This document shows positions 1-9,582 of a stretch of DNA of 9,600 nucleotides, one piece after another. Location: NCBI GenBank assembly GCA_001803565.1, contig MHDQ01000013.1, positions 1 through 9,600 of the forward strand, read 5' to 3'. The DNA comes from Nitrospinae bacterium RIFCSPLOWO2_12_FULL_45_22. Its GTDB lineage: Bacteria > 2-12-FULL-45-22. The position numbers and the translations under genes are program-made. The stretch's first letter is position 1; each line of letters begins with the position of its first letter. The notes under the pieces are model-generated. The model worked only from the letters and a program-made list of their open reading frames with translations. It was not told the origin of the DNA and searched no databases.

Positions 1-147
1 CGTCTGATTCAGCAATCTTTAGCAACTCATGCAAAGCCAATAAAAATAAACTGTTAACACTTAACATGAGCGAAGCAGATAGGCAGTTAAAGTAAATTAA
101 AGAAACTGGGGCCCTTACCCGGAGTGGTTCTACAAAAACCAAGAATT
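1..147 (-). other. Left-edge stretch downstream of the primase gene; possible start of an ORF leaving the window
   Basis: No convincing gene or terminator is visible. An ATG at 67-65 on the minus strand opens a frame of 22 codons that runs off the left edge without a stop, beginning MLSVNSLFLLALHELLKIAE. No Shine-Dalgarno sequence precedes it, so it may be chance. It is recorded because the element must continue leftward on the same strand. Confidence 0.2.
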
Positions 148-1956
148 TTATTCAACCCAATACCGGATCCCCCTTCCCTTCGTTTTCTTTCGATCCAAAT
201 CATGCTTATCACTTTTTATCGTCTCTTCCTCTTCGGCCTGGTTCAAAATCTTCCTTGCCTCCGTATCTCCACAGCCTGTCTTCTCTTTTATTGCTTGTAA
301 CAAGATGGATTGGTTATCAACCGAGCCTCCAAATTGGCTAAGAAGCTCCCTAACCCGGATAGGTGGGCAAAGGCTTTCCTCCTCTATTGGATAACAAAGT
401 AAGGTCTCAGGATCTCTTTCTAGCAATACAGGCCTCTGTGGTTTTCCTTCTCTGATCTTTACAAATTCTATCTGCAAGACTTGTTTATCAGCCTTATCTT
501 TACCTTTCGCAGATAGAGTAATCATCGTATCGGCCCAGTCGTGTATAGCCATCGCTCCCCTGGTACGGTAAGTCGTATTGGTTTCATCCTTTAGCGGCTT
601 CCTGAAGTGATGCGTTACTATGACGGCTACTCCGGTTTGATTACAAATGAAAGTTATCCTATCCAAAACCGCCCTCATTTTTGCGTTGTTGTTTTCTTCC
701 TCTGTGTGAAAGGTTATTAGTGGATCTAGCATCAAGACATCAATTTGATGTTTTTGGATGAGTGAAATTAGTTTTTGCAAGTCTGTATCATCTGTTATCT
801 TTAGCTGTGGTCTTTCTGGCTCGACAATAAAGATACCCTCTGGGAGTTCCTTCCCACTACTAAGCATCTTCCTTAACCTGGATTGTAGGCTGCTGTTAGT
901 CCCTTCCTGAGGGACATATAGGACCTTCACGCCACGCCTCTTTACCTCGAATTTGCCGAGTATGGGTTGTTGTTTAGTAAATTCAATCGCCCATTGGAGC
1001 ATTAGTAGGCTTTTTCCTATTCCTCCTTCGCCAGCTACAATTACTTTACCCAAAGCTGGGATAACTCCTTCTGCTACGATGGCTTGGCCGGTTTTATACT
1101 GGGTTGAGAGAAACTCTCTAAGTGATAGAGCTAATCTGTCTCCATCTTCTAGCTCATAGGGTAGGGCATCTTCATCCAGTTTATATCTTAAAAGCGCCGC
1201 CAGCCTATATTTATTGGCCATCCGTTGACCATCTCTATCCAACCAGTCAGAGATATCTTGTTTCTCTTCGAGTGCGAAGCTCTTGGAATGAACGATCCTA
1301 ATTGATTTTGCATAAGGTTTTAGGCTTTTGGCCACCTGATCTTTATGGATACGCCCCGCCTCATCATTATCATAAAGAACCACTATATTGAAGCCCTCGA
1401 GCTGTTTTGAGTACTCCTCTCGCCATTTTCCTGCACCAAACGGGCTTGTGGCCGCAACAAACCTTTCAGACCCGCACAGGAGTTCATTGAGGGCCATGAG
1501 GTTATCGCAGTCTTTTGGGCCTTCGGTTATTACGATAAGAGTGTCTTTATCGGCTTTAGCTATCAGATGAAAATTATAAATGATAGGCTTTTCATCTCCC
1601 AAGCCCCAAGTATAGCCATCTCTGCCGCATGGTCTTCGGATGGCGAACCTTTTACCTCTGAACCGGACTTCTTGGAAAGCAACTGAGCCATCAGCCCTGC
1701 AATAGGAATGAACTGCCTCCATTTCATCCCTAGAATCACCGGCTACTTTAAAGCTAGAATCATATAATCGCCCTTTCCAATCACATCCAAAGCAGTGATA
1801 AAGTTGATCTTCAGGGGAAATAGATAAGCTTTCCTTTCGATCATCATGCTTAGGGCACAGAGCCAACCAATTAGAGCCTATTTTCTTGGCCACGACAGTG
1901 ACGACTTGCCGTCGTTCTTTGTCCCATAGCTCAAAGGATTGTGATTGGCTATTCAT
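148..1956 (-). CDS. Primase-helicase fusion (CHC2-type zinc finger, Toprim, RepA/RecA-like ATPase)
   Basis: Predicted replication protein of the mobile element, expected to prime DNA synthesis and unwind DNA at its origin. A DnaG-like zinc finger uses C34, H37, C55 and C58. A Toprim domain follows, with EGPKD at 145-149 and the metal-binding DND at 196-198. The second half is a RecA-fold helicase of the RepA type: Walker A GEGGIGKS (309-316), Walker B ending in D411, and a THH motif at 448-450. Residues from about 530 look like a winged-helix tail. The 602-residue length suits such fusions, and all key residues are present. The ATG overlaps the upstream HTH gene by 8 bases (ATGAATAG), with AAAGGAG seven bases before it, so the pair is probably translationally coupled. 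The zinc-finger/Toprim/helicase order recalls T7 gp4, but the ATPase is RepA-like; the superfamily call is firm, the in vivo role inferred. Confidence 0.9.
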   Translation of the reverse strand: MNSQSQSFELWDKERRQVVTVVAKKIGSNWLALCPKHDDRKESLSISPEDQLYHCFGCDWKGRLYDSSFKVAGDSRDEMEAVHSYCRADGSVAFQEVRFRGKRFAIRRPCGRDGYTWGLGDEKPIIYNFHLIAKADKDTLIVITEGPKDCDNLMALNELLCGSERFVAATSPFGAGKWREEYSKQLEGFNIVVLYDNDEAGRIHKDQVAKSLKPYAKSIRIVHSKSFALEEKQDISDWLDRDGQRMANKYRLAALLRYKLDEDALPYELEDGDRLALSLREFLSTQYKTGQAIVAEGVIPALGKVIVAGEGGIGKSLLMLQWAIEFTKQQPILGKFEVKRRGVKVLYVPQEGTNSSLQSRLRKMLSSGKELPEGIFIVEPERPQLKITDDTDLQKLISLIQKHQIDVLMLDPLITFHTEEENNNAKMRAVLDRITFICNQTGVAVIVTHHFRKPLKDETNTTYRTRGAMAIHDWADTMITLSAKGKDKADKQVLQIEFVKIREGKPQRPVLLERDPETLLCYPIEEESLCPPIRVRELLSQFGGSVDNQSILLQAIKEKTGCGDTEARKILNQAEEEETIKSDKHDLDRKKTKGRGIRYWVE

Positions 1957-2143
1957 CCCCTGTCTCCTTTGCCCCCATCCGTTCCCGTCTCAGGGACTCA
2001 AGCTCAGCCCGCAGGAAGTACCGATACCCGTTAGGCATCCTTCGCTCTTTCAAGACACCACGTTTAATGCAGTTGTAGACGGCCTGATAACTTAAACCAA
2101 GATAACGGCTGGCATCACCCGTAAGCATAATTTGAGTATCCAT
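1949..2143 (-). CDS. Excisionase-like / AlpA-like helix-turn-helix DNA-binding protein
   Basis: A 64-residue protein of the MerR-like HTH_17 (excisionase) superfamily. The helix-turn-helix covers about residues 7-30 (LTGDASRYLGLSYQAVYNCI), followed by a basic wing, RRMPNGYRYF (34-43), and a recognition tail rich in Arg and Glu. Proteins of this size bend DNA for excision, regulate integrase or replication genes, or do both. The start is well supported: AAAGGAGGGA (2151-2160) lies eight bases before the ATG. Its stop overlaps the start of the primase-helicase gene by 8 bases, forming a regulator-replication operon. The likely binding sites are the repeats just upstream at 2174-2280. No integrase is adjacent, so a role as transcriptional or replication regulator is as plausible as excision itself. 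Confidence 0.8.
   Translation of the reverse strand: MDTQIMLTGDASRYLGLSYQAVYNCIKRGVLKERRMPNGYRYFLRAELESLRRERMGAKETGDE
1964..1970 (-). promoter_or_regulatory. Ribosome binding site inside the HTH gene for the primase-helicase
   Basis: AAAGGAG on the minus strand lies seven bases before the ATG at 1956-1954 and within the last codons of the HTH gene. It fixes the primase start and supports translational coupling across the ATGAATAG overlap. Confidence 0.75.
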
Positions 2144-2173
2144 AACATCATCCCTCCTTTTTAAATTTTAAAG

Positions 2174-2185
2174 CCTTTATAAAGG
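2174..2185. repeat. Perfect 12-bp palindrome CCTTTATAAAGG
   Basis: CCTTTATAAAGG reads the same on both strands and lies about 30 bases before the HTH start codon. Its right half overlaps the first direct-repeat copy. The position suits an operator for a small HTH protein. Confidence 0.6.
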
Positions 2186-2280
2186 ATTATAAATTACCCC
2201 CCCCCTGATTATTTTTAAGGTAAATCCAAATTAAATTTACCCCTAAAATAAGCTAATAAAATCAAAGGATTATAAAGGAT
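2181..2280. repeat. Iteron-like direct repeats AAAGGATTATAAA
   Basis: AAAGGATTATAAA occurs exactly at 2181-2193 and 2264-2276, and its first seven bases recur at 2274-2280, overlapping the second copy. The copies are 83 bases apart, close to eight helical turns. They resemble replication iterons or paired operator sites; there are too few copies to decide. Confidence 0.5.
2219..2241. repeat. Inverted repeat GGTAAAT / ATTTACC between the direct repeats
   Basis: Seven-base perfect arms at 2219-2225 and 2235-2241 enclose a nine-base AT-rich spacer. The repeat is weak as an RNA hairpin and more likely a protein-binding site, if it has any function. Confidence 0.4.
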
Positions 2281-2322
2281 GGAAAAATAGGGATGGAGGA
2301 TTGAGGAGATTAAGAGAAGGGG

Positions 2323-3159
2323 TTAGTTTTTCTTTTTGACTCTAGGCAAGTCTATTTTCTTCAAGCTCTCTTCCTTTAGACCTAATCGTTTTAGGGTAGC
2401 CTCCTCGGCCAGTTTTTTCGCAGTCTTTAGACCATCTCGGCCATACTTAGTAACAAAAAGGGCTATCTTATTTGATCCTATATGAGAAGGGCCTAAGCTA
2501 ATCAATCCATCTAAATCAGGGAATTCTTTCATTAATTCTCTCTGCCAGTCTCTACTATTGCTTTTCATTAGCTCTTCTGCTTTAGCAACCACCTTATGAA
2601 AATATTCTCCATAGAGCAAAAACGCTGCCTTGATCTTTTCGTCTGAGTAGGGCTTATCTCCCCCTGGTCTCTGTGGGATAATAGCTCTAATAAACTCCCT
2701 ATTTTGTTTTCTTAATTCAGTATCAGGGCTAGTTCTAATCTCTTCCAGCCGGGTAGCAACAAACCTACTTACTTCAGGATCAGTGAGAGTATAAGGAAAG
2801 TGCCGGATCAAATAGGATAACCTTTCCCTTATTTTTACTTTACCCTTCTCATCCGCCATTAGGTAGGATTCATTCACGTTCTCAATCAGTTTAATATCTT
2901 TAAGCAACCGCTCTAGTGTTTTTGATGGTTGATCTATTTCCCTCCATAATTGCTCCCGGGCCTTCTCATCTAAATCAAGGTACTCAGTTAACTTCTTAAG
3001 TAGTTCTTTTGGTCGTTTATCCGGTCCATGAGAATATCTATCGGGCAAACTACCAGTCAAGGCATTATCATATCTACTAATAAAATTATCTATATCCCAT
3101 AGTGTTAGCCCTTCAAAAAAATCTTCTTGTTTAGACTTGTTCTGATCTTCCGTAACCAT
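2323..3159 (-). CDS. Unrecognised charged, helical 278-residue protein of the mobile element
   Basis: No family is recognised. The protein is soluble, very rich in Lys, Glu, Arg and Leu, and without Cys, signal peptide or membrane segment. Predicted helices dominate, notably residues 50-105 and 180-215, and the tail from about 240 is strongly basic, ending RVKKKN, which would suit nucleic-acid contact. The start is good: a GGAGG core lies six bases before the ATG. It is the gene immediately upstream of the repeat region and the HTH/primase operon, on the same strand, so a role in replication, partition or element control is possible from position alone. Codon use suggests a genuine gene rather than a chance frame. 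Confidence 0.75.
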   Translation of the reverse strand: MVTEDQNKSKQEDFFEGLTLWDIDNFISRYDNALTGSLPDRYSHGPDKRPKELLKKLTEYLDLDEKAREQLWREIDQPSKTLERLLKDIKLIENVNESYLMADEKGKVKIRERLSYLIRHFPYTLTDPEVSRFVATRLEEIRTSPDTELRKQNREFIRAIIPQRPGGDKPYSDEKIKAAFLLYGEYFHKVVAKAEELMKSNSRDWQRELMKEFPDLDGLISLGPSHIGSNKIALFVTKYGRDGLKTAKKLAEEATLKRLGLKEESLKKIDLPRVKKKN

Positions 3160-3194
3160 CCCCTACCTCCCTCAAGTAAGCTCCCTTTACCGTT

Positions 3195-3740
3195 TTAATC
3201 TCCAATAGAAAATATTGAAATGCTTATCTCTCCAATGATTTTAGGCGAACCACTTTGAACTGAGCCAGCTTCGGCCAGCGCAGCAAAGGCCTGATAAGTA
3301 CCCGCTGGTAAGCCGGTAGGTAAGGTTATAGAGAAGAAAGGTGTTAGTGGGAAATCGTATCCTGGGCTCAGTTCCAAAGATGTACTGGCTGGGGTAAAGG
3401 TTCTTGGGTCATCTGCTTTGGCTGGTACCAGATTCTTTTGAATGCGAGGGGAGGCAAAAAAGTAGATACTACCATTGGGGGCAATAATGCCTAAAAAGAT
3501 ATCTACTATCTGAGTAGTATCAGTAGGATTACTGATGCTAAATGAAAGAGTGAAGGTATCTCCTGGGGAATAGTTACTTTTGTTGCTGGCTATGGTAATG
3601 ATGGGCTTAGTGCTTACCACTACTTTTATCTCTTCTGATTGGCTGCTTTCATTACCGGCATTATCAACCGCACTGAGGGACAGGTAATAAGTGCCTTCCG
3701 GGACATCGGAGGCAGTAAGGGATGTTATCTTACCTAACAT
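3195..3740 (-). CDS. C-terminal fragment of a secreted Ig-like / FN3-like surface protein
   Basis: Residues 1-45 look like the end of a fibronectin-III or bacterial Ig-like domain (GTYYLSLSAVDNAGNESS). A second beta-sandwich-like domain spans about 48-181 (NYSPGDTFTLSFSISNPTDT near its start). Both are typical of the C-terminal ends of large extracellular proteins. There is no signal peptide, and the first domain begins part-way through. No Shine-Dalgarno sequence precedes the ATG at 3740-3738; the frame stays open only 12 more codons upstream to a TGA at 3779-3777. The best reading is a 5'-truncated gene remnant carried or created by the element, probably not expressed as a secreted protein. 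A separate function of the short form cannot be excluded. Confidence 0.55.
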   Translation of the reverse strand: MLGKITSLTASDVPEGTYYLSLSAVDNAGNESSQSEEIKVVVSTKPIITIASNKSNYSPGDTFTLSFSISNPTDTTQIVDIFLGIIAPNGSIYFFASPRIQKNLVPAKADDPRTFTPASTSLELSPGYDFPLTPFFSITLPTGLPAGTYQAFAALAEAGSVQSGSPKIIGEISISIFSIGD

Positions 3741-3776
3741 TATTGGTAGGGCATGGATAATATTTCTTGAATAAAT

Positions 3777-3974
3777 TCATCTAGGTTTTCTTGGAGATTT
3801 CAGACGGCGATTACCTTCTTGTTTTCTCCGTTTAGAATTTTTAAACATACTCAGATCATCATAAATTGTATGACAATAATTACACTCCCATTTTCCATCC
3901 GGTAATTGGTACAGGCGATCATGCTTTTTACCTGGACGACATTTTGTACAACTCTTGTCTGGAGTAATTACCAT
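3777..3974 (-). CDS. Small zinc-ribbon protein (65 residues)
   Basis: Two CxxC pairs, C9-TK-C12 and C31-NY-C34, spaced by about 18 residues with an aromatic and charged linker, form a likely zinc ribbon. The tail after residue 44 is very basic (KRRKQEGNRRLKSPRKPR), so nucleic-acid binding is plausible. I place the start at the ATG at 3974-3972 because AAGGAG lies nine bases upstream. A longer reading from an ATG at 4013 would add 13 residues but has no ribosome binding site. The gene sits 71 bases after the AbiTii gene on the same strand, within the accessory part of the element. The specific function is unknown. Confidence 0.65.
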   Translation of the reverse strand: MVITPDKSCTKCRPGKKHDRLYQLPDGKWECNYCHTIYDDLSMFKNSKRRKQEGNRRLKSPRKPR

Positions 3975-3983
3975 AGTTTTGTT

Positions 3984-3989
3984 CTCCTT
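3984..3989 (-). promoter_or_regulatory. Ribosome binding site that fixes the zinc-ribbon start
   Basis: AAGGAG on the minus strand, nine bases before the ATG at 3974-3972. It favours this internal start over the upstream ATG at 4013, which lacks such a site. Confidence 0.7.
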
Positions 3990-4045
3990 AAAAACAACGG
4001 CGGTATAGGTCATTACGCGTCTGTTGGAAGCAGTTAGTTAGGTCT

Positions 4046-4960
4046 TTACAGCCCATAATAAGAATTTATCGCTTTCGTTAATACGGAAGTGGCAACCGAA
4101 GAGCTTATTTCCCAACTTCCCTTAGCCGCCTTGTTCATCATTTTTGTCATCCATGACATAACTTTATTGCCAATTTTATTTTGTTTAGGGTTTTCTTTGC
4201 TATCTTGGTGGATTGCCTTTTCGAGGTCGGATATCTCTTTCTCTGATATATTATGGTTTCTTAGATAATTTACTAATGAATCAATGTCATGTTTTTGAAC
4301 AGTCAACGCGATCTGAGCAAAATTTGTACTCCCTGCCGCAACATTATGAACATTTCCATAAATATTTGTGTTGAATACCTGCGTGACTTTTTCTTGTGGT
4401 AATGGAGGTGAATTAATTTGAGCTTCGCCAGCATCGGGCGCTTCGCTTTCTATCTCTAAGACAAAACTAAGAATTTTATTTCTTACAACGTCAACTAGGC
4501 TAACAACCGAATTAATAGCTATAACTTTCCATGCAGCTACACAATTCATACCTGTATAGAATCTATCCGCAACAGATGCTACGAAATCTGGTGGCCAAGG
4601 CTCTTGTAGCGCACTTCCCTTAGATTTATTTATGAGAGCCACATAAGCACTGATCGGGTCCATTAAATAGCTATGGCGAAAACTTTCTTGAAACTTTTCC
4701 GGCAAACAGCTTATAGGTATATCAGCATTGCGAAGGCCGCTCCAAAAAGGGCCGGAAAAATGCCCTTTTGAATGGACACTCAAGATTCTGTAGTCTGGTA
4801 AATCCTTAATAGTTTTATATCCATTTAGCTCGAATTCCACCCATTGCTTAAAAGCTTCATTTCCTAGACGAGCAGCTAAAACTTTGCACTTCCGAAGCAC
4901 TACAGATATATCAATTCTAGCATCAATCGCTGCGTCCTGAATATCCCTTAAAAGTGACAT
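4046..4960 (-). CDS. AbiTii-family abortive-infection (phage resistance) protein
   Basis: The N-terminal 60 residues match the AbiTii domain as I know it: MSLLRDIQDAAID, then LLRKCKVLAARLG-like residues at 21-33, then EFKQWVEFELNGY-like residues and a DLPDYRIL segment at 53-60. After a linker near 170-195, VFNTNIYGNVHNVAAGS (195-211) is the glycine-rich motif common in this family and in other prokaryotic immune proteins. Residues 220-300 are helical; the last 20 or so are amphipathic and could meet a membrane. Family knowledge: AbiTii is a phage-resistance domain whose mechanism is not known to me. The start is supported by GGGAGGG six bases before the ATG. The 304-residue gene appears intact, stands alone rather than in an obvious operon, and lies about 1.1 kb from the att end, a typical cargo position. 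Confidence 0.8.
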   Translation of the reverse strand: MSLLRDIQDAAIDARIDISVVLRKCKVLAARLGNEAFKQWVEFELNGYKTIKDLPDYRILSVHSKGHFSGPFWSGLRNADIPISCLPEKFQESFRHSYLMDPISAYVALINKSKGSALQEPWPPDFVASVADRFYTGMNCVAAWKVIAINSVVSLVDVVRNKILSFVLEIESEAPDAGEAQINSPPLPQEKVTQVFNTNIYGNVHNVAAGSTNFAQIALTVQKHDIDSLVNYLRNHNISEKEISDLEKAIHQDSKENPKQNKIGNKVMSWMTKMMNKAAKGSWEISSSVATSVLTKAINSYYGL

Positions 4961-5304
4961 TTTCTACCCTCCCTTATAACAAGGCATTTTACAATGTTGA
5001 TTGCTTTTATGAATACTTCCCATCCAGGTAAATAAGTATGACATAATATGGTGGTGATAAATCATTGATTTAATTCTCTATATTGTATTTGTGGGCCAAT
5101 CCGCTCATAGCCATTATCGAAAGAACAAAGGAAACAACCCCCAGGCCATACCATCATTCAGGTTATTCACCATCCCTGCCTGACTGCAGCTAAACAGGGC
5201 TTTATCCCTCCAACTGGTAATTAATAGGATATCGGCCAGGGATTACCGGCTTATCGGGTCTAGGTTCTCTATCCCCCAAAAGAAGATCCCCTTTTTCTCC
5301 CAGG
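4961..5304. other. Gap between the AbiTii gene and the 54-residue gene, holding transporter debris
   Basis: No intact gene is seen. The middle (5062-5242) holds a decayed minus-strand MFS transporter fragment, listed separately. The AbiTii promoter should lie between about 4975 and 5060, which is AT-rich, but I find no convincing -35/-10 pair. From 5304 down to 5204 a different minus-strand frame is also open for about 34 codons; it matches nothing known to me. Confidence 0.5.
5062..5242 (-). pseudogene. Decayed fragment of a major facilitator superfamily (MFS) transporter
   Basis: Reading the minus strand from 5242, 42 open codons give a stretch containing LLITSWRDKALFSC and QAGMVNNLNDGMAWGLFP. 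This strongly resembles the conserved middle of a family of MFS transporters, between the central loop and the seventh membrane segment. The frame then meets TAA at 5116-5114 and a TGA shortly after. A shift of one base continues as DNGYERIG, which again fits the family, before diverging and stopping at 5064-5062. The rest of the roughly 400-residue transporter is missing on both sides. This is a gene relic with truncation, a stop and a probable frameshift; it encodes no working protein. Recognition is by motif memory, not a search. Confidence 0.6.
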
Positions 5305-5469
5305 TTAGTTTTTATCGGTCTTTGAAGAAGGTTCTATTTTTAAGGTCTTCATTGCTTCCTTTAACATATCTCCATATTTTTCAACTTCTGATGTAGTGGT
5401 AGCTGAACTGATCTTATTTACTAATATTTTTATATCGTCCGTAAATTCATCTATTTTCTTCTTACTCAT
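5305..5469 (-). CDS. Small charged helical protein (54 residues) coupled to the membrane protein gene
   Basis: This protein begins MSKKKIDEFTDDIKILVNKI and ends SSKTDKN. It is soluble, mostly helical and rich in Lys, Glu and Thr, with no Cys and no recognisable domain. The gene overlaps the upstream membrane-protein gene by 8 bases (ATGAGTAA), and GGAGG lies nine bases before its ATG, inside the last codons of that gene. The tight overlap and good ribosome site make it a credible gene despite its size, and suggest that the two products are made together and may interact. Function unknown; an antitoxin or regulator of the membrane partner is one speculative reading. Confidence 0.65.
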   Translation of the reverse strand: MSKKKIDEFTDDIKILVNKISSATTTSEVEKYGDMLKEAMKTLKIEPSSKTDKN

Positions 5470-5821
5470 TCTCCTTTTCCTCCGGTAGAATAGAGGTAAT
5501 TGCCTCCCCTAATTTTTTGGTTTTTCTTTGCCAAATACTTATTTGATGCTTCTCCATTAAACTAATTAGTATACTACCACCTCCTAGCCCTGCTAATACT
5601 GACATTGCGAATTGTTTCCCAAAGGGTGGAGGAGTTAAATCTAACAAATAAATAACAACCCCTGCTACTCCTCCCACAAAGATGGGGGATAAAAATCCCG
5701 GTTCCCATGATCGTCCTTGCTCATCTTCTTTTATTCTTGGATATAAAAACTCCCTCTCAATAATAAGACAATTAAGAATCCCTCCAAGTACCCCTCCCAT
5801 GAGTATATAAAATATCTTCAT
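5462..5821 (-). CDS. Small membrane protein with three predicted transmembrane helices
   Basis: The 119-residue protein has hydrophobic segments at about 3-21 (FYILMGGVLGGILNCLII), 44-62 (LSPIFVGGVAGVVIYLL) and 70-89 (QFAMSVLAGLGGGSILISLM). Glycine-rich helix-packing motifs occur in all three. A charged loop at 22-40 and a charged tail after 90 lie on the membrane faces. The layout weakly recalls small bacterial membrane proteins of the DUF4257 type, but I cannot confirm this. The ATG at 5821 has only a poor ribosome binding site (GGGAAAA, 16 bases upstream); no better in-frame start exists. Its stop overlaps the 54-residue gene. It is the last element gene before the att scar, a frequent place for cargo with defence or toxin functions. 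Confidence 0.7.
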   Translation of the reverse strand: MKIFYILMGGVLGGILNCLIIEREFLYPRIKEDEQGRSWEPGFLSPIFVGGVAGVVIYLLDLTPPPFGKQFAMSVLAGLGGGSILISLMEKHQISIWQRKTKKLGEAITSILPEEKENE

Positions 5822-5851
5822 TTTAGTTAATCGTCTTTTTTCCCATAAAAA

Positions 5852-5873
5852 ACTCTAAAGGTTCTCTAAAGGT
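5852..5873. repeat. Two tandem 11-bp repeats upstream of the membrane-protein gene
   Basis: ACTCTAAAGGT (5852-5862) is followed directly by TCTCTAAAGGT (5863-5873), 10 of 11 bases identical. They lie about 30-50 bases upstream of the minus-strand start at 5821. One helical turn apart and in the same orientation, they could bind two protein monomers side by side, as operator or recombinase arm sites. No clear promoter hexamers were identified around them. Confidence 0.4.
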
Positions 5874-5957
5874 CATATCAAAATTCTACCATATTTTACC
5901 CTATTCTAGCCAATGAAAATTAAAAAGATTTCTTTAAGCAAAATGCTTTAGTATCAA

Positions 5958-5994
5958 GGGTTTAGCCTTACCTGTAAGGGTCTTGGCTAAACCC
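5958..5994. repeat. Perfect 10-bp inverted repeat next to the att site
   Basis: GGGTTTAGCC (5958-5967) and GGCTAAACCC (5985-5994) pair perfectly around a 17-base loop, ending 19 bases before the tRNA fragment. No T-run follows on either strand, so it is not a standard terminator. It lies inside the element beside the crossover region, where integrase or excisionase arm sites are normally found. An alternative is a factor-dependent stop for readthrough. Confidence 0.55.
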
Positions 5995-6013
5995 CTGATT
6001 TGGCCCAGTTTTA

Positions 6014-6060
6014 GATTCCTAATCCCTAGGTCGGACGTTCGAGTCGTCTCGGGGGTACCA
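6014..6060 (+). other. attR-like site: 3' fragment of a tRNA-Arg(CCU) gene
   Basis: Read on the plus strand: anticodon loop TTCCTAA (6016-6022; anticodon CCT at 6018-6020, T33 and A37 in place), anticodon-stem 3' strand TCCCT, variable loop AGGTC (6028-6032), T stem GGACG/CGTCT around TTCGAGT (6033-6049), acceptor 3' strand CGGGGGT (6050-6056), discriminator A and encoded CCA (6058-6060). Upstream, pairing survives only for the inner two stem bases (G6014, A6015). The sequence where the acceptor 5' strand should be (about 5985-5991) is GGCTAAA, which cannot pair. So only the 3' part is present, left when an element crossed over within the anticodon arm. The tRNA-Arg(CCU) gene is a known integration target (E. 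coli argW). Confidence 0.8.
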
Positions 6061-6096
6061 ATAAAATCAAGCTACCATATCCCAAATGGCCCGCCT

Positions 6097-6330: not shown

Positions 6331-6420
6331 ATGAGAAAAGAGAGGTTTTTTGGCAAGTATCAAGTATATAGAAAAGCTGACCCAGTTTGGTCTATTTTGC
6401 GTAGGAGGAGAGTAAGGTGA
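6331..6420 (+). CDS. Possible 29-residue basic leader peptide overlapping the DUF362 start
   Basis: An ATG at 6331 opens 29 codons that end at TGA 6418-6420, overlapping the GTG start of the next gene by 4 bases (GTGA), as in translationally coupled pairs. AAGGGG lies only three bases before the ATG and AGAAGG ten bases before. The peptide is very basic (eight Arg, three Lys). However, its Arg run, LRRRRVR, is largely the coding of the next gene's own ribosome site, so composition gives no independent support. It could be a coupling leader or chance. Confidence 0.3.
   Translation: MRKERFFGKYQVYRKADPVWSILRRRRVR
6404..6410 (+). promoter_or_regulatory. Ribosome binding site supporting the GTG start of the DUF362 gene
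   Basis: GGAGGAG lies six bases before GTG 6417-6419. The match and spacing are near ideal, and no ATG in the first residues has a comparable site, so GTG is taken as the start. Confidence 0.75.
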
Positions 6421-7727
6421 CATCTAAAGTTTATTTTATGGATGATCGGGCTATGGCCCCAGAAGAGAGTCTAGTAGCTAAGATGTTGACCGTTGCAGAG
6501 GCCGCGGGTTTTGACGAGATAATCGAACCAGGCAAAACCGTGGCTATTAAGCTCCATATGGGCGAGTATAATAATACCGCTTATCTAAGACCCAGTTATG
6601 TCCGGGCATTAGTGGATAAGGTAAAGGCATTGGGGGGAGAGCCAGTGGTAATGGATACTACTACCCTGCCATATCTGCCCTTCCCATCCAGGGCTACCGC
6701 GGTAGATTACCTAAAGACCGTGGAGAGGAACGGGTTTAATTCTGGTACCGTTGGTTGCCCCATTGTGGTAGCTGACGGCTTTGTAGGGACAGATGACGTA
6801 AGGTTAGATTTGCCGGAAGGGTTTGTCTTGAAAGAGCAGTATGTAGCTACCGGCTTTGCCTTAGCCGATGCGATGATTGTCTTGAGCCATTTCAAGGGGC
6901 ATCCATTAGGTACCTTCGGTGGCTCAATCAAGAATATGGGCGTAGGTTGTGCATCCAAAAGGGGAAAACTCAATCTACACCTGGGTGGACATCCCAAGTA
7001 TGGATTAAAAGCCCGTCCTTTTAATCCTCATATGTGCAGAGGCAAGGAATGCGAAAGGTGGATGCTTTGCCAGACTTGTTGCCCCCGGTACTGTTTCACC
7101 GTTACTGAGCATTCTATTGAATGGAATAGGGACAAATGCGTGGGTTGTTTTGCCTGTCTATTTGTTACTATGTTGTGCGGGGTCTTTGGTGTAGTAGAAG
7201 ACTTTTTCGATGTCAGTGCTGCCGGTATAGCCGACTCTGCCTTAGCTGTCACCAAGACCTTCCTGCCCAATAAGATAGGTTATATCAATATGGCTATTGA
7301 TATCTCACCCTGGTGTGACTGTGTAAACTTCAGTGATAGGGCCTTTGTACCCAACCTGGGTGTTTTTGCCTCTAAAGACCCGGTAGCCGTGGATAGGGCC
7401 TGTATAGATATGGCCAGGGACTCTATAGGCATGCCCGGCTCTATTGCGGAAGAGAAAGGGGCTATTAGCCCCGGTATTCCTAAATTCTCTGCTTGTGCCT
7501 CTTTTCTTGGTGTGAGTGAGAATATCCAGATCAAGACAGGCGAACGGATAGGGTTAGGTAGTCTGGATTATGAATTGGTCCATCAAAAACCGGGTGACCC
7601 GACTAAGTTCTTGTTCACTACGGTACCGGCGGGGTTAAAATTTGGGCCTTATTTTGAGAAGACCCCTATTTATCCCGAAGGTGGATTCAGACAACTAATG
7701 GAAGTACCTATAGAGGAGGTAAGATAG
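6417..7727 (+). CDS. DUF362-domain iron-sulfur protein, probable electron-transfer partner of AOR
   Basis: A 436-residue cytoplasmic protein. The N-terminal DUF362 domain shows TVAIKLHMGE (41-50), a DTTTLP turn (80-85) and the family signature SHFKGHPLG to KNMGVGCASK (157-181). A ferredoxin-like insert follows, with Cys at 207, 212, 218, 221, 222, 226, 241, 244, 247 and 254. DUF362 sequence resumes with WCDC (299-302) and VFASKDPVAVDRACID (316-331). Some DUF362 proteins carry two [4Fe-4S] clusters and are thought to be redox partners. Here the Cys spacing departs from two plain CxxCxxCxxxCP motifs, so the number of clusters is uncertain. The AOR gene starts four bases after the stop, so electron transfer to or from AOR is a reasonable inference, not established. 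Confidence 0.85.
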   Translation: MTSKVYFMDDRAMAPEESLVAKMLTVAEAAGFDEIIEPGKTVAIKLHMGEYNNTAYLRPSYVRALVDKVKALGGEPVVMDTTTLPYLPFPSRATAVDYLKTVERNGFNSGTVGCPIVVADGFVGTDDVRLDLPEGFVLKEQYVATGFALADAMIVLSHFKGHPLGTFGGSIKNMGVGCASKRGKLNLHLGGHPKYGLKARPFNPHMCRGKECERWMLCQTCCPRYCFTVTEHSIEWNRDKCVGCFACLFVTMLCGVFGVVEDFFDVSAAGIADSALAVTKTFLPNKIGYINMAIDISPWCDCVNFSDRAFVPNLGVFASKDPVAVDRACIDMARDSIGMPGSIAEEKGAISPGIPKFSACASFLGVSENIQIKTGERIGLGSLDYELVHQKPGDPTKFLFTTVPAGLKFGPYFEKTPIYPEGGFRQLMEVPIEEVR

Positions 7728-7731
7728 GATC

Positions 7732-9582
7732 ATGAAAGGATACATGGGCAAACTAATCAGGGTGAATCTTACCAAAGGCGAGATCAAGACCGAAGAATTA
7801 GATCCCAAAAAGGCTCGTGACTATATTGGCGGTGCGGGCTTAGGCACCAGGATATGTTATGATGAGATCCCTACCGGGGCTGACCCTTTAGGCCCAGCCA
7901 ATAAGCTGGTGTTTATGACCGGGCCGGTCACGGCTACCAAATTCCCTACCTCAGCCCGCTACGAAGTCTGTACTAAATCACCCCTTACCGGTATCTGGGT
8001 AGATGCCTCTTCTTCGGGCTTCTGGGGAACTCAGTTCAAGACTACAGGTCATGATGGCATAATTATTGAAGGCGCCTCAAGCAAACCGGTCTATCTCTGG
8101 ATTGACAATGATCGTATAGAGTTGCGTGATGCTAGCCATTTATGGGGCAAAGATAGCTTCGAGACCCAGGATATTATCATAAATGAAGTAGGCGATAAAA
8201 AGGCACGGGTTACCTGCATTGGTCAGGCGGGCGAGCGGGAAGTATTGCTCTCTGCTGTGATGAATGACGAGGGCCGGGCCGCTGGCCGGGCGGGGGTCGG
8301 TGCGGTCATGGGCTCTAAAAAATTAAAAGCTATTGCCGCTCGCGGTACCCGTAAGGTAGAAGTAGCAGATGATGAGACCTTTTCTACCTTTTGCAAAAAA
8401 ATGATCCAGGGACTGACCAAACACCCGCTGGTAGAGGCCCTTGGAGTTTATGGCACTGCTTGTATGCTGGATCAGGGCTGGGTAACCGGTGATATCCCCT
8501 TAAAGAATTGGGCTAAAGGCTATTGGAAGGAAGGCTGTGTGGCTATTGGGGGGAAGAAGATGGCCGATACCATCTTGAAGCCCCATGCCGCCTGCTTCAA
8601 CTGCCCCATCCGCTGCGCCCGCTGGATCAAGATAGAGAGCGGCAAATATGCTATGGAAGGGCCAGGGCCAGAATATGAAAGCTTGACCTCCCTGGGTGTC
8701 CTCTGTATGAATGATGACCTGGAGAATATCTGTTACGCTAATGATCTTTGTAACCGCTACGGGCTGGATACAATATCAACGGGCTCGGCTATTGCCTTTG
8801 CTATGGAGGCATACGAAAAAGGGGCCCTGACCAAAGATGATACCGGTGGTCTGGACCTCTCCTGGGGTAATGCGGAGGCAGTTATTGAGCTTACCCGGCT
8901 CATCGGCCAGAGAAAGGGCTTAGGGGAACTGCTAGGCAAGGGTGTCAAGCGGGCAGCGGAAGCCATTGGTAAAGGTAGTGAAAAGTATGCCGTCCATGTA
9001 AAAGGGCTAGAAGTACCCATGCATGACCCCCGGGCCTATCATAGCATGGCGGTCAATTATGCTACTTCACCCCGGGGGGCTTGCCATCTACACGGTGGTC
9101 CTTTTATGTTCGAGTTGGGTTTTATTGCCCCAGAGGCTGGAGTTACTTATAAACCAGGTCGCTTCGATAAGAAGGGTAAAGGGCTTCTGGCAAAAGCGGC
9201 CCAGGATCTGGCCAGTTTAATCAACTCTTTAGTAGTCTGCTTCTTTGCCGGTATGGGCTTGCAGCCACTGCACCATATGGTACTGCTTAATACCGTTACT
9301 GGTGCGGGATATACTACCAAAGAGCTGTTGCTTATCGGCGAGAGGATATCTAACCTCCAGCGGGCCTTCAACCTCCGCTGCGGTATCACGGCCGTGGATG
9401 ATAAATTACCACCCCGATTATTGGAGCCTACACCGGATGGTGGTGCAGCCGGTAGGGTACCGGATATAAAATTTCAGTTGGAGGAATATTATCAGGTACG
9501 AGGCTGGGATGCTAAGGGCATCCCTACCAAGCAGAAATTGCAAGAATTGGGCCTGGAAGAAGTCATCAAAGACTTGTATTGA
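7732..9582 (+). CDS. aor: Tungsten-dependent aldehyde:ferredoxin oxidoreductase
   Basis: Oxidises aldehydes to carboxylic acids in the cytoplasm, passing electrons through a [4Fe-4S] cluster to ferredoxin; the cofactor is a tungsten bis-pterin. The 616-residue length is normal (Pyrococcus furiosus AOR has 605). The cluster ligands C288, C291 and C295 (CFNCPIRC) stand at the same numbers as in the P. furiosus enzyme, and the fourth is C503 (LVVCFF). Other family segments are YIGGAGLGTR (31-40), ARYEV with R76, NDEGRAAGRAGVGAVMGSKK (178-197), GPEYESL (312-318), GLDTISTG (344-351) and the late pterin loop NLRCGITAVDDKLPPR (547-562). AGGAGG is followed by 12 bases to the ATG; a second ATG four codons on has a poorer site. 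The pairing with the DUF362 iron-sulfur gene suggests an operon. The aldehyde substrate cannot be read from the sequence. Confidence 0.95.
   Translation: MKGYMGKLIRVNLTKGEIKTEELDPKKARDYIGGAGLGTRICYDEIPTGADPLGPANKLVFMTGPVTATKFPTSARYEVCTKSPLTGIWVDASSSGFWGTQFKTTGHDGIIIEGASSKPVYLWIDNDRIELRDASHLWGKDSFETQDIIINEVGDKKARVTCIGQAGEREVLLSAVMNDEGRAAGRAGVGAVMGSKKLKAIAARGTRKVEVADDETFSTFCKKMIQGLTKHPLVEALGVYGTACMLDQGWVTGDIPLKNWAKGYWKEGCVAIGGKKMADTILKPHAACFNCPIRCARWIKIESGKYAMEGPGPEYESLTSLGVLCMNDDLENICYANDLCNRYGLDTISTGSAIAFAMEAYEKGALTKDDTGGLDLSWGNAEAVIELTRLIGQRKGLGELLGKGVKRAAEAIGKGSEKYAVHVKGLEVPMHDPRAYHSMAVNYATSPRGACHLHGGPFMFELGFIAPEAGVTYKPGRFDKKGKGLLAKAAQDLASLINSLVVCFFAGMGLQPLHHMVLLNTVTGAGYTTKELLLIGERISNLQRAFNLRCGITAVDDKLPPRLLEPTPDGGAAGRVPDIKFQLEEYYQVRGWDAKGIPTKQKLQELGLEEVIKDLY

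Follow-up and report, generated by a model that had tools for sequence, protein, structure and literature searches.

The window analysed here is an entire contig (C13, 9600 bp) of a MAG that comprises 3.67 Mb in 321 contigs and is 85% complete. It carries a 3′ fragment of tRNA-Arg(CCU) at positions 6014-6060, and all of the named genes to the left of this fragment are on the minus strand. These encode a primase-helicase (148-1956), identified by family matches to a CHC2 zinc finger and AAA_25, a type of protein that serves replication in phages, plasmids and integrated elements; an excisionase-like HTH_17 protein (1949-2143; phrog_2907 and phrog_66); a 278-aa protein with no family match (2323-3159); a piece of an Ig-like protein, the family of which is repeated in the genome (3195-3740); a 78-aa cysteine-rich ORF, also with no family match (3777-4013); an AbiTii-family protein (4046-4960, E 1e-48), predicted to act in anti-phage defence and to be element cargo; and a 119-aa protein with a weak match to DUF4257 (5462-5821). 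The many genome copies of the Ig-like family include copies beside tRNA-Glu (C100) and in a region at tRNA-Arg(CCG) that bears an integrase (C80). Identification of a sister element through primase homologues in viral, phage and plasmid sets was rejected, the homologues being too distant. Short stretches at 5118-5281 recur on contigs C210, C123 and C2 with 87-92% identity and may represent a small mobile repeat.

An inverted repeat, ATCAAGGGTTTAGCC / GGCTAAACCCCTGAT, stands immediately to the left of the fragment, on its element side, at 5953-5999 (no strand assigned). It is a possible integrase or excisionase site, or a possible transcription stop. The repeat was considered as an integrase arm site since it contains ATCAAGGG, but only 1 of 55 distinct fragment-type viral sites has such a copy there, and a role as a general arm site was rejected. 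The literature searched on ATCAAGGG and integrases yielded nothing relevant.

To the right, the fragment is followed on the plus strand by the flank ATAAAATCAAGC (6061-6072), in which ATCAAG begins at +5 after the CCA, as it also does behind a number of intact tRNAs, and behind the Leu(CAG) fragment, in the same genome. Two conserved metabolic genes come next, encoding a DUF362 protein (6417-7727, plus strand) and an aldehyde ferredoxin oxidoreductase (AOR; 7732-9582, plus strand), and no integrase follows up to the end of the window. The DUF362-AOR pair is found in the same order in the closest relative compared, a same-order "Nitrospinota bacterium" (G001, JACOWJ01), where the DUF362 protein is 76% identical. 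The GC content is 0.41 to the left of the fragment versus 0.49 to the right, with approximately 0.445 in the sampled loci. Based on the gene content, the GC values and this synteny, the left side appears to be an element and the right side chromosome.

The left end of the contig itself runs into a dispersed repeat. Bases 1 to 88-99 recur at the ends of four other contigs whose surroundings are otherwise unrelated, so that the assembly probably broke at an insertion-sequence-like repeat, with 1-99 (no strand assigned) the probable end of the insertion sequence. At least five copies of this repeat are present, and the five contigs that stop on one all do so in the same direction.

The tRNA-Arg(CCU) fragment

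The letters of 6014-6060 are GATTCCTAATCCCTAGGTCGGACGTTCGAGTCGTCTCGGGGGTACCA. The initial annotation had read them as a tRNA-Arg(CCU) stretch running from the anticodon loop through the CCA, and the assignment of each part bears this out. The 7-nt anticodon loop TTCCTAA is found at 6016-6022 (plus strand), followed by the 3′ stem strand TCCCT, the variable loop AGGTC, the T arm GGACG-TTCGAGT-CGTCT, the acceptor strand CGGGGGT, the discriminator A and CCA. Intact tRNA-Arg(CCT) genes found in other bacteria, in a search of 386 genomes, match 45 bases of the fragment, the best of them with 4 differences. In one of them (G041), the acceptor strand ACCCCCG and the anticodon-stem strand AGGGA are exactly those that had been predicted for the absent part. 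A chance origin of the fragment is excluded: the window has a single copy of its core 29-mer, and 200 shuffles had none. The fragment is placed between annotated genes (one ending at 5821, the next starting at 6417) and overlaps no conserved coding domain. It runs to the end of the tRNA, and its orientation fits an element on its 5′ side.

The 5′ half is missing, as had also been noted. On the 5′ side of the loop, pairing with the 3′ stem strand is possible for G30 and A31 but not for positions 27-29, and neither ARAGORN nor Rfam called a tRNA anywhere in the window. The proposed extent of 47 bases was retained only in part. The secure fragment is 6016-6060, because the identity blocks of two comparable pairs in this genome (see below) begin at loop position 32 or one base earlier; the "GA" at 6014-6015 need not derive from the tRNA. 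One explanation for the missing half would be an intron-interrupted tRNA or a split tRNA gene with its 5′ half nearby. Introns are indeed present in the anticodon loops of some tRNAs, but no Rfam family of any kind matched the window at E values up to 1, no acceptor-complement candidate from the window resembles a tRNA 5′ half and the genome-wide pattern search for the matching 5′ half gave 0 hits, leaving this explanation with a negligible probability.

Islands at tRNA-Asn and tRNA-Leu(CAG) in the same genome

The same anatomy, complete with an integrase and an intact partner, is found at two other tRNAs of this genome. For tRNA-Asn, the intact gene, with an integrase downstream of its 3′ end, is on contig C139, and an exact copy of its 3′ part is on C20. 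The two are identical over 45 nt, from the first loop base (position 32) to the CCA. For tRNA-Leu(CAG), the intact gene and the integrase downstream of it are on C56, and the exact 3′ copy is on C222. Here, the identical stretch is 56 nt long and extends from one base ahead of the loop to 1 nt beyond the CCA. Genes for an HTH_17 protein and a DUF3854 protein, the latter a predicted primase, are located on the element side of the Leu fragment.

The fragment of the window appears to start, and ends, like those of the Asn and Leu islands. The window and the Leu(CAG) island also both carry HTH_17 and primase genes (the primase being predicted in the Leu island) on the element side of the fragment, and their flanks are similar, with CCA-GCAAA-ATCAAG after the Leu fragment and CCA-ATAAA-ATCAAG in the window, ATCAAG standing at +5 in both. 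Given this shared fragment layout, gene content and flank, the window would most simply be a third attR of the same anatomy, the attL partner of which was lost in an assembly gap. The Asn and Leu islands, however, share a P-side block and TATGGCG repeats, both of which are absent from the window; therefore, the element of the window probably uses an integrase of another subfamily.

The TATGGCG sites are paired, 11 bp apart, and on the element side. Relative to the CCA, they are found at +46/+57 in the Asn attL (L290), at +57/+68 in the Leu attL (L291) and at -190/-179 in the Leu attR (L292), and are candidate integrase arm sites. In addition, two related integrase genes, at 2960-4138 of L135 (C80) and 98-1276 of L136 (C222), are on the same strand as the tRNAs and stop 7-17 bp short of the 5′ end of an intact tRNA-Arg(CCG) and tRNA-Gly(GCC), respectively. 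Such a polarity is rare, and with it the 5′ part of the tRNA may come from the element.

The block behind the tRNA ends was also found outside this genome. In viral contigs, attachment sites have ATCAAGGSYTTACG beginning 4-6 bases behind the CCA of the tRNA; the copy of the window is at 6066-6072. Among IMG/VR stretches in which a tRNA 3′ end is followed by ATCAAGG, 92 have the block at +4, at least 120 at +5, at least 120 at +6 and 10 at +9. In many of these sites, the 5′ half of the tRNA is missing and an integrase ORF is located nearby. In the +5 set, the consensus runs on as ATCAAGGGCTTACG, and a stem of at least 7 pairs starting at AAGG was found in 66 of 92 distinct sites, versus 7 after shuffling. 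The block is thus common at attachment sites and is often a terminator-like hairpin. In the genome studied here, a similar block (ATCAAGG, ATCAAGC or ATCAGGA) is located exactly at +5 after the CCA in 7 of 34 tRNAs; the tRNAs followed by the block include those for Asp, Asn, Arg(CCG), Leu(TAA), Leu(CAG) and Glu. Possible roles for the block are an integrase site, a tRNA terminator that attP brings along, or a combination of the two. Because chromosomal flanks carry it too, the block does not tell on which side the element is found.

The fragment as the probable right attachment site of an element

We interpret 6014-6060 as the attR of an element integrated in tRNA-Arg(CCU), with the crossover in the 7-nt anticodon loop, and give this reading a probability of roughly 0.88. 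The initial annotation had already proposed an attR with a crossover in the anticodon arm, and both the contrast between the flanks and the Asn and Leu islands argue in its favour, the latter by analogy within the genome. In the proposed mechanism, a small element carrying the primase-helicase, the excisionase-like HTH_17 protein and the AbiTii cargo would insert into the plus-strand tRNA-Arg(CCU) by means of a tyrosine integrase, with strand exchange across the anticodon loop as the overlap region, as suggested by the loop sequence and by where the identity of the Asn and Leu pairs starts. The attP of the element would bring its own version of the tRNA sequence from the loop through the CCA, and the tRNA would thereby be rebuilt at the left end (attL), outside the assembly. 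The original 3′ half, 6016-6060, would be displaced to the right end, where it would form the core of attR. The integrase gene would be expected at the missing left end, adjoining the rebuilt tRNA. In this mechanism, the integrase, the intact or rebuilt tRNA-Arg(CCU) and the exact point of crossover are inferred.

The searches for the predicted partners are to be read with the state of the assembly in mind. No second copy of the fragment was found across the assembly with up to 3 mismatches allowed, and an intact tRNA-Arg(CCU) was not found in this 85%-complete assembly, in which contig C13 ends at base 1. This absence carries little weight, because His, Phe, Arg(TCT) and other expected tRNAs were likewise not found. 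Similarly, no integrase gene is encoded in the window, where 1-6013 reaches the end of the contig without the left end of the element; elsewhere in the genome, 17 Phage_integrase matches score above the family cut-off. No empty site was found at the DUF362 loci of relatives, and the relatives with the right-flank genes have no adjoining tRNA. A search of viral contigs gave no exact match to the 29-mer of the fragment.

Alternatively, the junction could be an attP or a tandem arrangement, formed by a circular element or by two consecutive elements. Both flanks would then be element DNA, the right flank would open with the P′ side, and the DUF362-AOR genes would belong to a mobile element sharing the +5 ATCAAG flank. 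The position of ATCAAG fits, as the same block is found behind the tRNA portion of many viral attP sites, but the block is also present in the Leu attR flank and after intact tRNAs that are followed by ordinary genes. For this reason, we rejected the +5 motif as proof of an element on the right. Moreover, an integrase is usually encoded within approximately 20-200 bp to the right of true P′ sides, but here the DUF362 and AOR genes are found, in an order conserved in G001. We therefore consider an attP or tandem junction very improbable.

The fragment could also be the remnant of a dead tRNA gene that lost its 5′ half through a deletion or an unrelated insertion, with no site-specific integration. 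The lack of a partner tRNA-Arg(CCU) in the assembly and of an integrase in the window would agree with such a loss, but the fragment breaks off exactly at the anticodon loop, just as in the two islands verified in this genome, and mobile-element genes stand next to the break. A dead remnant is accordingly very improbable.

Comparison with known tRNA islands

Integration of this type follows a textbook mechanism: it is standard for tyrosine integrases to recombine across the anticodon loop as a 7-bp overlap, with the stem providing the core sites (reviewed in PMC8371274). With the attR reading, at least three tRNA genes of a little-sampled Nitrospinota-related lineage are used as island sites, and an AbiTii defence gene is placed on a tRNA-targeting island. 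In addition, the conserved block 4-6 bp behind tRNA ends could aid the detection of island ends.

Phages with tRNA-dependent lysogeny (PMC10865867) resemble the element of the window in that both integrate inside a tRNA gene. Lysogeny of those phages reportedly requires phage-encoded tRNA genes; in the element of the window, a rebuilt tRNA would lie at attL, outside the assembly. Close counterparts are also the islands of the Islander collection, in which a 3′ fragment is present in 3760 of 3919 islands and the site is centred on the anticodon in 2083 (PMC4383910). The full Islander signature consists of the tRNA, the fragment and the integrase, while for the element of the window the assembly contains only the fragment. 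Islands of this kind are already well known, Islander listing thousands of the anticodon type and with 3′ fragments, and its anticodon-site "A" islands (Mantri & Williams; PMC4383910) share with the window a 3′ fragment at the far end, a crossover (probable for the window) in the anticodon loop and element-type genes in between.
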